From contig CP084613.1 in the NCBI GenBank assembly GCA_025917655.1, positions 1,054,001-1,118,000 of the forward strand: 64,000 nt of DNA. The letters run 5' to 3'. How positions within the stretch are numbered: position 1 is the stretch's first letter; each line of letters begins with the position of its first letter. The stretch comes from Chlorella sorokiniana. Taxonomy: Eukaryota; Chlorophyta; Trebouxiophyceae; Chlorellales; Chlorellaceae. The notes under the pieces are model-generated. The model was not told the origin of the DNA. It ran no database searches and saw only the letters and a program-made list of their open reading frames with translations. A program made the position numbers and the translations under genes. This document shows positions 2,224-64,000 of this stretch, piece by piece.

Positions 2224-5200
2224 ATGATGCAGCTGGAGGAGTTCAAACGAAAGAAGCAGGCTGCCCTGGCTGCCAAGAAGGGCCCACCGTCGGCCTCCGC
2301 GTCGCCCGCCAAATCGGGCGGCCTCCCAGCTCAGGCCAGCACGACGCTTCGCTGGCAGGCCTGCCGCCGGGCCTTCCGTTGCCCCCGAAGGGTTGCCCGG
2401 TCCTCAAGCGCAGGCGTTGCACCCGCTGCCCGCCTCCACAGCAGCTGCTGCGCCGGAGTCGGGCGAGGCTGCTGCGCTGCGCGACCAGGTCGGCCAGCTG
2501 CTGCAGTCGGTGGATGAGCTGCACAGGGCGCTGCGGGACGAACGTGCCAACAGCGCGCAGCTGGAGCAGCAGACGCAGGAGCAACAGGCACGGCTGCGCG
2601 AGCTGACCGACGAAAACCGGGCGCTGCAGCAGGCGGCGCACGCCGATGAGCGGCAGCAGGGTGAGGCGGCAGTGCACGCCGAGCTGGCGGAGGCTCGGGC
2701 CCAGGTGCAACGGCACGCAGCAGCTGCCGAGAACTTGTCGGCGGAGCTGGGTGCCACTCGCCAGGAGCAGGAGGCTGCCGCCGCGGAGCTGGCGGCGGCG
2801 GCGCGGGAGGAACACGCGGCAGAGCTGGCCGCCGCTCAGGAGGGCAACTTCAGCCTGATCGGCGAGTACAAGCAGCAGCTGGACGAGGCGCAGGAGGAGC
2901 TGGAGCGGCGGCGTGCTGAGCTGGACGCAGCTGCGCGTCGCCTGGAGGATGCGGGGGCGCAGGCCGCGCGCTCAGAGGAGCAGCTCGTCGCTCTCAGCAC
3001 CCAGCTGGCGGAGCAGCAGGCCGCTGCTGCCGCCGCCGCCGCGGAGCTGGAGCAGGCGCGGCAGCTCAACGCGCGCATGCGGCAGCAGCTGGCGGAGCAG
3101 GCGGCGGCGGCCGAGGACGCGACCGCTGCGGGCGAGGCGGAGGCGGCGGCGCTGGCGGCGGCGCGGGCGCGTGTGGCTGAGCTGGAGGAGCGTGCCTTGC
3201 TGGCAGAGCGCCAGCTGGCTGAGGCCGAGGCCAGCCTGGGCGCCGCCGACGAGCAGCAGCGGGCGGCGCTGGCGGAGGCGGCGGAGGCGGCGGCGGCACG
3301 CGAGGCGGAGCTGCACGATGAGGCGGCCCGGGCTGCGGAGGTCGTCGCTGCGTTGCGGGCGGAGCTGCAGTCCAGGGGCGAGGCTGAGCAGGTGGGGTCT
3401 GGGGATGCGGGATGGGTTGGTAGCTGTGGCTGGGAGTGGGGCGCCCTAGGCGTGGCGTCGGTCAGCATGAGGCTGCGCGTTCGAAACAGTTGAAACCTGT
3501 TCCCTTGCCTGTCGTACTTGTCATGGCTGCCTGCGTGGCATGCTCCCAACTCCACTCTACCGACCCCTGCTCAGCCGTCCCCAGCCTCCCTCCCCGCGCC
3601 CCTCCTCTCCAGGGCGGCCAGCAGCAGCTGGCTGAGCTGGCTGACCTGCGGGGGCGTACGCGGCGGCACAGCAGCAGCTGGAGGCGAATGCGGAGGCGCA
3701 GCGCGAGTTGGCGGCGCTGGTGGAGGAGCAACAGGGGCTGCTGGAGGCGCTGCAGGGGCAGGTGGGCGAGGAGCGGGCTGCCAAAGCCGACGCCGAGCGG
3801 CGGCAGCCGCCTCTGCCGCGGAAGCGGTGCAGCTGAGGGCGCGGCTGGAGGCGGCGGAAGCGACTGACGCGGCGCGCGGGGAGCAGGCTGCTGCGGCCGA
3901 GGAGCGCGTCGCGGCGCTGCAGCGCGAGCTGGAGGCTGCGCAGGCTGAGCTGGCGACAGCAAGGCAGGATGGCGCCGCGCTGCGGGAGCAGCTGCAGGCG
4001 GCGACGCAGGACTCTGCCGGCGCAGCCGCTCTGCAGGAGCAGGTGGATGGCCTTGCTGCTGAGCTGGCGGCGACCAGGCAGGAGACCGCTGCGGCAGTGC
4101 AGCAGGCCGAGGAAGCTGCGGCTGCGCTGCTGGCAGCGCAGGGCGAGGCGGCGCAGCGCGAGGCCGCGCGGGCGGCGGCGCAAGAGCAGCTTGCGGGGCT
4201 GGAAGGCGAGCTGCTGGCCAGCCGGGAGGAAAGCGCGGCCCTGCAGCAGCAGCTGGCGGCCGCTGCGGAGCGGGAGGGCGGCGCCGACGAGTTGGCAGCC
4301 CGGCTGGCGGCCATGCACGGCCAGCTGGCGGCGGCGCAGCAGCGCGGCGAGGAACTCGAGTCTGAGCTGACTGCTCGGGCGGACGGTGAGGCCGAGCTGC
4401 GTACCAGGCTGGAGCAGGCGGAGGCGGAGGGGGCGGCAGCAGAGGAGCGGGCACAGCGGGCAGAGCAGGAGCTGGTGGCTGTGCAGCAGCTGCACGCCGA
4501 AGCGGCGGCGGCGGCTGAGGCAGCACAGGCAGACGCCGCCGCGCAGCGGACGCAGCGGCAGCAGCCGCGGCTGAGCTGGCGGCCAGGGATGCTGAGCTGG
4601 CGGCCCTGCAGCAGCAGCTGCAGGATCTGCAGCTGCATGGCGGCGCCGCCACGGCGGCGGCGGCGGCCGCTGCCGATGCGGCGCGGGCCCAGGCCGCTGA
4701 GCTGGCGCAGCAGGCGGCGGAGCTGGGGCAGCAGCTGGAGGCAGCCGCCGCCGCCGCCGCCGCTGCGCAGGAGGAGAAGGGGCACTATGCGTCAGAGCTG
4801 GAGACCCTGATTGAGCAGACGGAGGGGATGATTGCCGAGCGGGCGCAGGTGTGCGATCAATCAACGCGCAACTTATGTTGGAAAGTGCCACTCTCACGCG
4901 TGACAGGCCGCCCTGCCCGGGCTGTGACGCACTGCGGTGCGGCGCGCTGCTCGCTCCCTCACTTTTCCTTGGCCCTCCCATGGCGCCTGCCGCCCTTCAT
5001 CCTTCACAGCTGGAGCAGCAGGTGGAGGAGCTGCGCCAGCGGCTGGATGCGGCAGAGGCGACGGCGGCGGCTGGGGGCGGCGTCGCGGCACAGCTGACGG
5101 CGGCGCAGGCTGAGCTGGCGGAAGCGCTGAGCTGGCGGGAGCAGACGGAGGCGGAGCGCGACGCAGCCCTGCGGCGTGCAGCCGAGCTGGAGGCGCAGCT

Positions 5201-6796
5201 GGGGGCTGCGGCCGAGGCGCAGCACGCTCTACAGGAAGCAGCGACGGCCGCCGAGGAGGCCGATGAGCGCGCGCTGCAAGCAGAAGAGTGGGGCCGGCAG
5301 CAGGCAGAGGCGGCTGCCGCCGCCGCCGAGCGCGTTGCGGAGCTGGAGGCGGCGGTTGCGCTGGGGGCCCGGGACGGGGAGCATGCCGCGCAGCAGCAGA
5401 GCCAGGTGGAGGCGCTCGCCGGGAGGTGTCACGGCTGCAGGCCGCCGCCGCCGCCGCCGCCGAGCAGCAGCAGGCGCTGGCCGAGGCGCTGCAGCAGCAG
5501 GTGGAGGCGCTGTCGGCGAGGGTGCGGGAGCTGGAGGCGGCGGCGGCGGAGGGGGCCCGGCGGGCGGGACGCGGCGGCGCCAGCGCTGGACGACCTCCAG
5601 CGGGAGAATGCCGCCCTGCAGGTGCGGGCAGCCGCTGCCTGGCTGCTGCCTGCGCATGGGAGGGCTGCAACGCGCGGGGCCCAGCGTGTCGCACAGCAGC
5701 CAGCCTCGCGTGAGCAGCAGGGACGGGAGATGGATGGCCTCCGCCACGCTGCCGCCTGCCCCCACCTCCATCCGTCCCCCTCCAACCTGCGAACTTTCCG
5801 CTGGCCTATCGTCGCGTACCCTCCCCCTCCCCGCAGGCTGCGGTGGCTGAGTACAGCTCCCAGGCACAGCAATGGGCGGAGCGGGTCCGCCAGCTGGAGG
5901 CGGCGGCGGCGGCGGGCGGGTCGGCTGGCGACGCCATTGCGCGCCTGGCGGCGCTGCAGCAGCGGGCCTCCGAGGCCGAGGTGGCTGCCACGTCGCTGCA
6001 GGCCGAGAACAGAGCGCTGCGTTCTCAGGTGGGTGGGCAGTTGAACGAGCGCGGGGGCAGGTGGGGTTGGCAGGCGTGGGTTGTGCTGCCTGCTTCCTCC
6101 TTCCCACCACCCAGCCAACCCACCTGTTCCGACCCTTCACTCCCCACCAACCCGGCCCACCAGTGTCCACCCCTCACACACTCACGCCCTCCCCCTCCTC
6201 CAGCTGGAGTCTGAGCAGCAGCGCGCCGTCGAGCTGGAGAGCTTTGTGAAGCAGCGGGGCGGAGCGCAGGTGGGCGCTCTGCGGATTGCTGCCTGTACGC
6301 CACGCCGCACTGGCCGCACAGCCTGGGCTCCCACCCTTAGGGTTGTTCCTGAGGCGCACACCTGTCCCCACCTTTTCGCCGCACCCATCCCACTCTTCTG
6401 GTGGCGCCGCCCTCCTTGTACCCTCAATCTCACTCCCAATCGGCAACCACTCCACCCTCCTGCCCTGCCTGCTGCCAGCACCGCCGCTGCCACCCTCAAA
6501 GACCCCCACACGCTACCCCCATGCAGCCCAGCCCCGCGGCGGGGGCAAGAAGAACGAGGACGACTCGTTTGACGTGGAGGCGGCGGCGCTGACAGGGGGT
6601 CTCTGCCTTCAGGCCCCTGGCGGGCGTGGTGCGCGCGCTGCCGCCGCCCATCAGCACCCAGCCCGCCGTCATGCGCGCCGCCACCGCCGTGGCGCTGCAG
6701 CTGGACAAGGCAGCCATTGCGATGGATGCGCGGCCGCAGCTGCGAGCGGTCATCATGCTCTACTTCCTGCTGCTGCACCTGTTTGTGCTGCTGTGA
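2224..6796 (+). CDS. Golgin-84-like coiled-coil Golgi protein with C-terminal anchor
   Basis: This is a large coiled-coil protein of the tail-anchored golgin type (plant golgin candidate 1/golgin-84), expected to tether vesicles at the Golgi rim. It starts with MMQLEEFKRKKQAALAAKKG, runs through long Ala/Glu/Gln/Leu heptads, and ends with a basic juxtamembrane part and the hydrophobic AVIMLYFLLLHLFVLL before TGA at 6794-6796. Exons are about 2224-3391, 3613-4848, 5010-5621, 5837-6028, 6203-6269 and 6532-6796. Frame slips occur near 2345-2390, 3648, 3800, 4553, 5425, 5555 and 6595. At 3648, 3800 and 4553 one more G restores the heptads, and at 5425 one more C does. The short Lys-rich N terminus differs from the land-plant golgin start, so an upstream exon is possible. 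CASP or TMF-like golgins are the alternatives. Confidence 0.7.
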
Positions 6797-61038: not shown

Positions 61039-61285
61039 GGTAGACGCCGAATGAAGACGTGAGAAGTACAGAAACGCTAACAGACACACGACACCCCTGA
61101 CAGGCGCACGAGGTGTCCGCTGTGAGCGCACCGCTGTAACGAACTACACCCTTGATCTCATCCGCAATTCTAGACATTTTCGGTTAGCGACAGTCAAAAT
61201 CATTGATGAAATTTCAAGTAATTCAGAGCAACTGACAGCAGCGCTGCTGGCATGACAGCCCGGCAAACGCAGCTGCCGGCCATCA
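61039..61285 (-). other. Short intergenic space, WDR82 promoter side
   Basis: About 250 bases between the WDR82 start and the CIPK stop hold no recognised feature. A TGTAA-like TGTAACG on the + strand near 61134 faces the wrong way for both genes. Confidence 0.35.
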
Positions 61286-64000
61286 TTAGCAACCGCCGCC
61301 GCCGTCGGCCCCCTGGCTCCCGCCACCGCTGCCCACCGCGCCCTCTGGCAGGGCCGGCATCGGCTGCCAGACCTTGGAGCTGCTGCCCGAGACAGGGCTG
61401 CCGCCGGCGGGGCTGCTGCTGCTGCTGCTGCCGGGCGCGAGGCCCGGTGGGTGCCAGGTGCCACCCTGCCCCCCTCCTCGGGCAAGCTGCCGAGCGAGGA
61501 GCGTGGGGCGGCGCAGCCAGGGCCCCGCTCTGCGCCCTGCCCTGCACTGGGTGCGTCCCCCGCCTCGCTGACGTCCGAGGGGGAGGGCAGGGGCAGGTCC
61601 TCGATCGCCTGCCGCTCCGCCTCGCTCATGCTGGGTGTGACCTGCAGCAGCGCCGCGGCCTTGGTGGCGGTGGGGAAGGCGTCGCGCCGCATCATCACGT
61701 GCTGCAGCCGCGCCGCCAGCTGGGCATACACCCTCATGAAGTCCAGCGAGGATCCAGCCTCCAGCTCCAGCTGGCACACGTGCATGCCCGGCAGCACCTC
61801 AAACAGGTGCGCAGCAGCCTGCACGCTGCGTCCGCCGCTGGCCGGCACCGCCAGCGCTGCTCGCCGCTCGCCGTGCCGCGCCGCGGAGCCGCCCAGGCCT
61901 GCCGCCGCTGCCTCCAGCGCATCCAGCACCTCAGCAGGCGGCTTGCGGCTGCTGAACTGAACGTGGCGGGAGGTGGCCTCCCCCTCCTCAAAAATGGCTC
62001 CAATCTGGGGGACGAGGGGTGAGGTGCAAGGGGGTGGGGGGGCAGGAGCAAGGCTAAGTAGCCTCGCGCATGCAGGCCGGCAGGGCTAGGCCCCCGCCTC
62101 GCTTTTCCTGCATGCCAGGCCCATGCACCCTGAGCCCCGTCGCTGCCATCTGCACACCGCTCCAGCCAGCTTCTTCGCCCCTTCCCCGGCCGCCTCCCCT
62201 CTCACGTTGATGCATGAGGAGATGAGCTGGAAGGCGTTTGCACGCAGCCGCCCCGCGCCAGCCTCGCGGTCGGCGGCCCTTCGCGCCGCCACCGCGCGTG
62301 CGCCCACATCCCCGGCCCTGCCGGGGTCTTCTTGCTGATGATGGAGGCCAGCACCTCGGTCAGGTCGGCATACCAGCTGTAGAACTCAACTGGAGGACAC
62401 AAAAGGAAGGTGAAAAGTTGGCTGTGTGTGAGGGAAAAGGTAAATGTGTGTCATGGCCAATGAGGGAACAAGGGAGGGCAGCAGCGGCACACGGCGGGCC
62501 AGCGCAGGCTGGATCCAGGGCCCGGGGCAGCCGGCCCCAATGATTGCTACGCCCGGGCTGCGCCTCCCCGCGCTTGCCCCACCCGTGTTGCCCTTCACTT
62601 TCTGCAGGTCGACCATGTGGGTGCCCGGAACCACCTGTGCCACCTCAGCCAGCACCTGGATGGTGCCCCGCGGGTTGGGGATGAACAGGCGCAGCCTGGG
62701 GGCACAGGGGAGGGGAGGGGGCACAGGGCAACGTGTCCTTAGGCCCGGCATGGCGCAGTGCACAGATCCATTCTTGCAAGGTGTGCTGCACGCTGCGCAC
62801 GCGGCGCACGCTGCGCACAGCCCAGCCTGCAAGGAGCGCAGGCAGGCGGCCAGACTGGAGAGGGCAGGGCACGCCCGGGCCGGGCGGGGAACCCACCTGC
62901 ACTCGTGGTCGCGCGTGACGCGGCCCCCACCGCCACCGCCGCATTCTCCAGCGCTGCTGTGATGGTGGGCAGCGGTGCGCGCGAGGAGAAGCGCGTGTGG
63001 CGGGTCACAACGTCGTCCCGCGCCTCAAACAGGGCGGAGATGTCCAGCCCAGACTTGATCAGCTCAAAGGCGCTGACCTTGCGCTGCGCCTGCCCGCCAG
63101 ACGTTTGTGCCAGCAGGCGGCGCTGCACGGCGGGCAAGGGGGCACACGGGAGGGTCGTGGGGCAGACGGAGGCCTGCGGGCAGGCCCTCCGGGCAGGCCA
63201 GCGTTGCTGGTTTATATGCTTCGCCACAAAGGGTGCAAGCAATCCAGGCACGCGCACCCCCAGGTCGGCCCCAGAGCTTGGCTTGCCTTCAGCGCTGCCC
63301 CCGACCCACCCGCCGGCTTCAGCATCCCTCACCGATGTTTCAACCTGGTACGCGTTGCGAATGACCTCGGGCTCCACATTGGGCGCAAAGATGTCGGCCT
63401 GCAGCTCGGGCGGCGGTACATGCCACCCCGCAACGCTGCGCCGCACCAGCCCCGACCGCATCCACGGATGCTGCCACAGCTGCTCCGCTGTAGGCCTGGA
63501 GGGGCCAGTCGGGAGGGAAGATTGTGTGCGTGTGTGGGGGGGGGGGGCACGACCGATGAAGATGGGTGCAGGATGGGGTGGGATGGGACGAAATCAAAGG
63601 GCAAGGCTCCGGCACGGCCTCAACCAACCACTAGCAGCATGCCCCTCATCCCCTCTCAACCATGAACAACAACTGAACTGCATAGTCAACGAGTGAGAAG
63701 CAACCACCTGCGCACCTGTCCTCCGGCCGCGGGCTAAGCATCGCCGCCAGCAAGCCCACCGCGCCGCGCGACAGCCAGGGCGGCACCTCGTACCGCGCAG
63801 CCGAGATGGAGCGGAACAGCGCCGCCAGGTCGTCCTCGTCGAAGGGCAGGCACCCAGCCAGCATCACGTACAGCGTCACACCTGCAGGGGTGTGGGGATG
63901 GAGGGGTTTGGAAGGTTTTCTGTACTTCTGCTGTGTTCTGTGTAAGGTGTCAGGAGCAGCTTGTAAGCAGGGTGGCAGCCAACCGCCCGCTGGCCCCCCC
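61286..64000 (-). CDS. CIPK: CBL-interacting kinase (CIPK/SnRK3) with two NAF modules, 5' end missing
   Basis: CIPKs are Ca2+-signalling kinases held inactive by a NAF/FISL segment that CBL calcium sensors bind. The N lobe and active site lie beyond the window. The last part of the kinase is present: LYVMLAGCLPFDEDDLAALF, RYEVPPWLSRGAVGLLAAML and EQLWQHPWMRSGLVRRS. Module 1: VSAFELIKSGLDISALFEAR, DDVVTRHTRFSSRAP (about 63080-62975), then VLAEVAQVVPGTHMVDLQKV and VEFYSWYADLTEVLASI (to about 62350). Module 2: RANAFQLISSCIN (about 62247-62207), IGAIFEEGEATSRHVQFSSR, AAHLFEVLPGMHVCQLELEA and SLDFMRVYAQLAARLQ (to about 61700). Both fit the SOS2/CIPK24 regulatory half. A Ser/Pro/Gly-rich tail ends at TAA 61286 (or at 61144 in another frame). 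The frame slips near 62920, 62320 and 61470. Confidence 0.85.

Follow-up and report, generated by a model that had tools for sequence, protein, structure and literature searches.

A CIPK gene of Chlorella sorokiniana with a duplicated NAF-PPI regulatory module

The CIPK locus and its frame breaks

We analysed a 64,000-nucleotide stretch of the Chlorella sorokiniana genome (contig CP084613.1, positions 1,054,001 to 1,118,000), referred to here as the window. The source genome comprises 38.8 Mb in 15 contigs. A CIPK gene lies on the minus strand at the edge of the window and was modelled with 11 exons, starting past the window edge (65534 on the window scale) and ending at 61286. Exons 1-5, which encode the 5' half of the kinase, are outside the window. 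Nine of the ten modelled CIPK introns have GT-AG ends. A GC donor was observed in the intron after exon 2 (window-scale 65077; position 4078 of locus L002).

The translation reads, in order, kinase, SAFELIKSGLDISALFE, TRFSS, PPI, a 30-residue linker, NAFQLISSCINIGAIFE, VQFSS, a second PPI and a low-complexity tail. Exon 6 (63716..63881, minus strand, as are all features below) encodes the kinase C-lobe (GVTLYVMLAGCLPFDEDD...PEDR), and exon 7 (63345..63495) encodes the end of the kinase domain and the junction (RPTAEQLWQHPWM...NAYQ); both were placed by the gene model and by tblastn with the C. vulgaris protein P0001. Exon 8 (62897..63122; gene model, Pfam NAF match) holds the first NAF and the initial part of the first PPI domain (PPI1), with a frame break in a G-run at about 62933-62917. 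The first NAF/FISL motif, SAFELIKSGLDISALFE, occupies 63024..63074 (Pfam NAF match, motif pattern). PPI1, assembled from joined exons, extends from 62996 to 62328 with introns included, and its strands (LRLFIPNPRG...DLQKVKGNT) lie in exon 9 (62583..62695), which matches P0001 residues 394-431.

Exon 10 (62206..62389; gene model, tblastn) contains the final PPI1 helix (VEFYSWYADLTEVLASIISKK, to 62328), the linker and the start of the second NAF (NAF2), and has a frame break in a G-run at about 62318-62304. An intron (62205-62005) interrupts the second NAF/FISL motif. Its first part, NAFQLISSCIN, was found at 62206..62238 (Pfam NAF match, motif pattern) and its end, IGAIFE, at 62004-61987 by joining the exons. 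Exon 11 (61286..62004; gene model, tblastn, CIPK24 match) encodes the end of NAF2, the second PPI domain (PPI2) to 61681, and the low-complexity tail, which has the stop codon and a frame break lying between about 61474 and 61426. PPI2 (HVQFSSRK...LQHVMMRRD; 61681..61965) was delimited by its match to CIPK24 and CIPK23, and its identity to C. vulgaris is 55%.

The gene end at 61286, which had been proposed from the letters of the window, was upheld by the C. vulgaris C-terminus, which aligns in the frame ending at that stop (E 2.3e-14). The same tail alignment ruled out an alternative end at 61144 in another frame. A WD40-repeat gene lies directly downstream of the CIPK gene in the same orientation (window 61044-58625, minus strand). 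In Micractinium conductrix P0005, the CIPK and the WD40 protein are joined in one sequence, probably a read-through prediction of conserved neighbours.

We counted five breaks in the CIPK frame, two beyond the window edge (one each in exons 2 and 3) and three within the window (exon 8, exon 10 and the exon 11 tail). We observed that adjoining tblastn matches to the C. vulgaris protein switch frame where exons 2, 3 and 10 and the tail are broken. The exon 8 break was deduced from the intron phase where exons 8 and 9 meet, together with the alignment to relatives. Five breaks in the coding region, one of them between the modules, could mean that the locus is a decaying pseudogene, or that the two halves do not form a single protein in this alga. 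At the exon 10 break, a strict reading of the assembly leaves the modules unjoined; homologues join them. However, four of the five breaks were pinned to runs of at least three G. Such runs account for 7.2% of the first 1,900 coding bases. The fifth break falls in an interval with a run of six G. The WD40 neighbour has a frame break of the same kind at a G-run (about 59000-58983), which suggests homopolymer errors in the assembly. Repair takes one base more in exons 2, 8 and 10, and two more or one fewer in exon 3. With these four breaks bridged, we obtained 771 residues without a stop codon, the final part being read in the wrong frame. The catalytic motifs are present and the homologues are continuous. 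We therefore regard decay of the locus, or a separation of the two halves, as very unlikely, and the five breaks are most likely assembly errors at homopolymers.

Identity of the two modules and their occurrence in relatives

In the frame-bridged model, the kinase domain matched PF00069 at 9.2e-70, and the kinase translation contains the VAIK, HRD, DFG and APE motifs. PF03822 (NAF) matched twice (32.4 and 30.5 bits; cut-off 25). A phmmer search of solved structures matched both modules to the CIPK24 regulatory domain, module 1 over residues 16-136 of 140 (E 1.1e-16) and module 2 over residues 20-142 of 155 (E 5.1e-11). The alignments to 2ehb_D and 4d28 extend past the NAF, showing a PPI part after it in each module. 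The earlier note had described two successive regulatory halves, each with a NAF, a TRF or VQF strand and a PPI part, and all of these were found where it placed them.

We also assessed the resemblance of the PPI parts to KA1 domains. KA1 (PF02149) scored 13.7 bits in module 1, below the cut-off of 23, and was unlisted for module 2. A fold search with the structure model of a relative's PPI1 returned a KA1-like domain, with matches to the KA1 domains of Chk1, AMPK and MARK. Both PPI domains in the relatives' models have the same topology at fair to high confidence; the NAF parts of these models are of low confidence (pLDDT ~28-45). The fold of PPI2 is thus a predicted one, based on this topology and on the sequence match.

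Like CIPK24/SOS2 and CIPK23 of Arabidopsis, the window protein has a kinase domain, a NAF/FISL motif and a PPI domain, and each of its modules spans most of the CIPK24 regulatory domain. Unlike these proteins, it has two NAF-PPI modules rather than one, a NAF loop two residues shorter in both modules, and VQF in place of TRF in module 2. It differs from the KA1-domain kinases AMPK, MARK, SAD and Chk1, in which no NAF motif or CBL docking is known. These data support the view that the window gene encodes a single CIPK protein in which the NAF-PPI module is duplicated.

Three protein searches yielded 27 relatives, among them sequences from Chlorella vulgaris, C. sorokiniana, C. ohadii, Micractinium conductrix and Nannochloris 'desiccata'; Micractinium and Nannochloris are Chlorellaceae. 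The second module was present in 25 of the 27 homologues. P0013 and P0021 stop inside or right after module 1, so one-module forms are possible. Searches 1 and 2 used both modules as the query and were biased to two-module proteins; search 3 had only the first module of P0021 as its query, and both modules are present in 22 of the 23 matches it gave. A search for two NAF hits per protein, as the earlier note had proposed, gave two Pfam NAF stretches in 22 of the 27 relatives. P0016, P0018 and P0020 have one Pfam NAF, and their second motif was found by pattern. The pattern missed NAF2 in P0006 and P0024, both of which were recovered by a slightly wider one. The second modules of P0006 and P0007 are interrupted or cut by frame loss. 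The search lists, which consist of close relatives only, contain no land-plant CIPK and no one-module green algal CIPK; because land-plant CIPKs are missing from them, the absence of one-module green algal forms is uninformative.

To place both modules on one RNA, we compared P0006 (contig up to 16,935 bases) with P0007 (contig up to 2,548 bases). P0006 has extra stretches where, in the window gene, exon 8 joins exon 9 and exon 10 joins exon 11. P0007 is nearly identical to P0006 around these junctions and is without both extra stretches, and we infer that it probably derives from spliced RNA. It runs through the kinase, NAF1, PPI1 and NAF2 into VQFSSR, after which the frame is lost. P0004 (763 residues, contig of 2,481 bases) is probably also a transcript. 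The proposal that one transcript contains both modules is thus supported in a relative, whose probably spliced sequence includes both NAFs; this strain lies outside that evidence.

An assembly chimera or a prediction that fused two CIPKs was rejected because the same order and spacing occur in other sequences, and because the genome search turned up no second CIPK (59 of 123 candidates scored). NAF-to-NAF spacing was 134-159 residues in 24 relatives and 191 in P0006, which retains introns. The C. ohadii sequence P0003 is without kinase pieces ahead of HRD and around APE; exons were probably missed in its prediction.

Age of the duplication and constraint on the two copies

We built a tree of module sequences with 26 rows for module 1, 23 for module 2 and two from plants (left out: module 1 of P0006 and P0013; module 2 of P0006, P0007 and P0024). 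First and second modules formed separate clades (support 91/85 for module 1 and 100/98 for module 2). The tree program warned of long branches, from the second modules to the plant rows, and the rooting is unsure. The separate clades indicate a single tandem duplication that is older than the sampled algae. A recent tandem copy was rejected: the modules within one protein are 29% identical on average (n = 23), which is lower than the identity of the same module between proteins. Intron positions inside modules 1 and 2 are not the same, which also weighs against a recent copy. Mean identity between proteins was 58.8% for module 1 and 47.6% for module 2, so that module 2 diverges faster.

We observed that the NAF is more conserved than the rest of its module in both copies (mean pairwise identity in 23 proteins: 79 vs 56% for module 1, 65 vs 45% for module 2). 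The difference was similar after the set had been reduced to 14 proteins less than 80% identical to one another (77 vs 55% and 65 vs 43%). Ala-Phe is invariant in both copies (23/23 proteins). NAF2 keeps Ala-Phe, the next Leu-Ile and the second-helix Phe in 23/23. The inter-helix NAF loop is two residues short of CIPK24 and CIPK23 in both copies, again in all 23 proteins, which suggests that the duplication came after the loss of these two residues. Taken from these alignments, both copies appear to have been distinct and under constraint since the duplication. The duplication would have occurred in an ancestor of the algae sampled, and the species identified among them are Chlorellaceae.

As had been noted from the letters, the second NAF of the window protein has Asn-Ala-Phe and the first Ser-Ala-Phe. 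Among 23 proteins with both modules aligned, the window protein alone has the module 1 Ser. The mirror change, Ser-Ala-Phe in module 2, was observed in five Nannochloris-type relatives (P0018, P0019, P0020, P0023 and P0025). Ser as a sign of a dead or degenerate first copy was rejected, since the module 1 Ser is private to the window gene and five other proteins have Ser in module 2. Thr is described in place of the NAF Asn in canola CIPK7 (PMC3890537), and PMC4990929 gives the NAF as invariant across all species analysed there. In both relatives' models, Asn stands immediately before the first NAF helix, in parts of low confidence; Ser could act as a helix cap at that position.

The PPI arginine is Gln in 23/23 second modules (VQF for TRF). 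It is kept in 21/23 first modules, with Gln in P0026 and P0027. In the window protein, PPI1 has the Arg-Phe of the phosphatase-docking motif, whereas PPI2 has Gln-Phe. PMC3890537 counts that Arg among the small number of conserved positions in the phosphatase motif. The phosphatase-docking role is thus probably retained by the first module only. Module 1 looks canonical apart from Ser and the shorter loop; module 2 keeps the NAF helices.

The CBL partner and the possible roles of two modules

We searched the genome for further CIPK and CBL loci. One CIPK locus was found: past residue 310, the C. vulgaris protein matched the window gene only (59 of 123 candidates scored). One CBL was found, ~113 kb from the CIPK gene on the same contig (C3:1230663 onward). 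It is 55% identical to AtCBL2 over 42-124, and its first EF-hand loop aligned without gaps. The CBL locus (L004, G000:C3:1226500-1234500) has several exons at ~3716-5211, in which no frame break was seen. Its inferred first exon starts MGCAASS, in keeping with the dual-lipid motif given in PMC4030171. These searches score exons separately and may have overlooked a second, divergent CBL or CIPK. The remark that CBL-CIPK pairs are sparse among chlorophytes agrees with PMC4030171 and PMC4990929, in which such pairs are described as absent in some chlorophytes.

The best explanation of these data, to which we give a probability of about 0.5, is a CIPK whose regulatory half was duplicated once and whose two modules would dock the same CBL, leading to avid or cooperative activation. 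Each NAF helix pair would occupy the groove of a molecule of the one CBL found, and a kinase could thereby bind as many as two copies of this CBL. Capture of both inhibitory NAF segments would make the calcium response steeper, and two acylated CBLs would serve as anchors for tighter membrane association.

The inter-helix NAF loop is described as setting CBL specificity in plants (PMC3634423). The same two-residue-shorter loop in both copies fits binding of the same partner. The loops also differ by copy (the first module has, for instance, NDY or KSG, and the second GSN or SSC), as would be expected if the modules served two different EF-hand sensors, a CBL and another such as calcineurin B, in a two-input gate. 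The earlier note had raised two sensors and an AND/OR calcium gate. This was weakened by the exon-by-exon genome search, which detected a single CBL-like gene alongside a single CIPK and so makes it unlikely that two different sensors are involved.

Other observations count against docking of the same CBL by both modules. Module 2 diverges faster and has Gln, and its job may have changed. Module 1 alone might dock CBL, with module 2 as a KA1-like domain that acts in kinase autoinhibition, lipid binding or dimerisation. Such a change would be consistent with the faster evolution of module 2 (mean identity to CIPK24/23 of 25-26%, vs 33-34% for module 1), with VQF instead of TRF in 23/23, and with the KA1-like fold of a relative's PPI1. 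In addition, the PPI is described as resembling KA1, and KA1 domains as binding lipids (PMC3634423). However, the invariant NAF2 residues, and the higher conservation of NAF2 than of the rest of module 2, would be unexpected if groove binding had been lost. A new job for module 2 is therefore possible, though somewhat doubtful.

The earlier note knew only of CIPKs with one regulatory module. The novelty of the doubled module is reduced, as two NAF domains in a Chlorella CIPK (UniProt C4P7Q5) were noted in 2014, in one sentence that called their significance and accuracy unknown (PMC4030171). From this description, C4P7Q5 most likely belongs to the same gene family as the window CIPK. Both are Chlorella CIPKs with two NAFs; here, the second NAF-PPI module, its conservation and its age were tested. 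In the portions of the open-licence literature covered, we found no mention of a two-NAF CIPK or of C4P7Q5 beyond that source. Our analysis adds evidence that the second NAF-PPI module is genuine and ancient and that it is shared and under constraint, and resolves the doubt left in print in 2014 on the reality of the two-NAF architecture.

Tentatively, the Chlorellaceae pathway may have shrunk to one sensor and one kinase and gained steepness from two docking sites within the kinase; a 2:1 CBL:CIPK complex, with capture of both inhibitory NAFs required, would form a cooperative calcium switch with two acylated anchors. Land plants have numerous CBL and CIPK genes. In this alga, where one CBL and one CIPK were found, the doubling sits in the docking module inside the single kinase. 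This offers a small system for dissecting how calcium might be decoded cooperatively and for telling the role of NAF from that of PPI.
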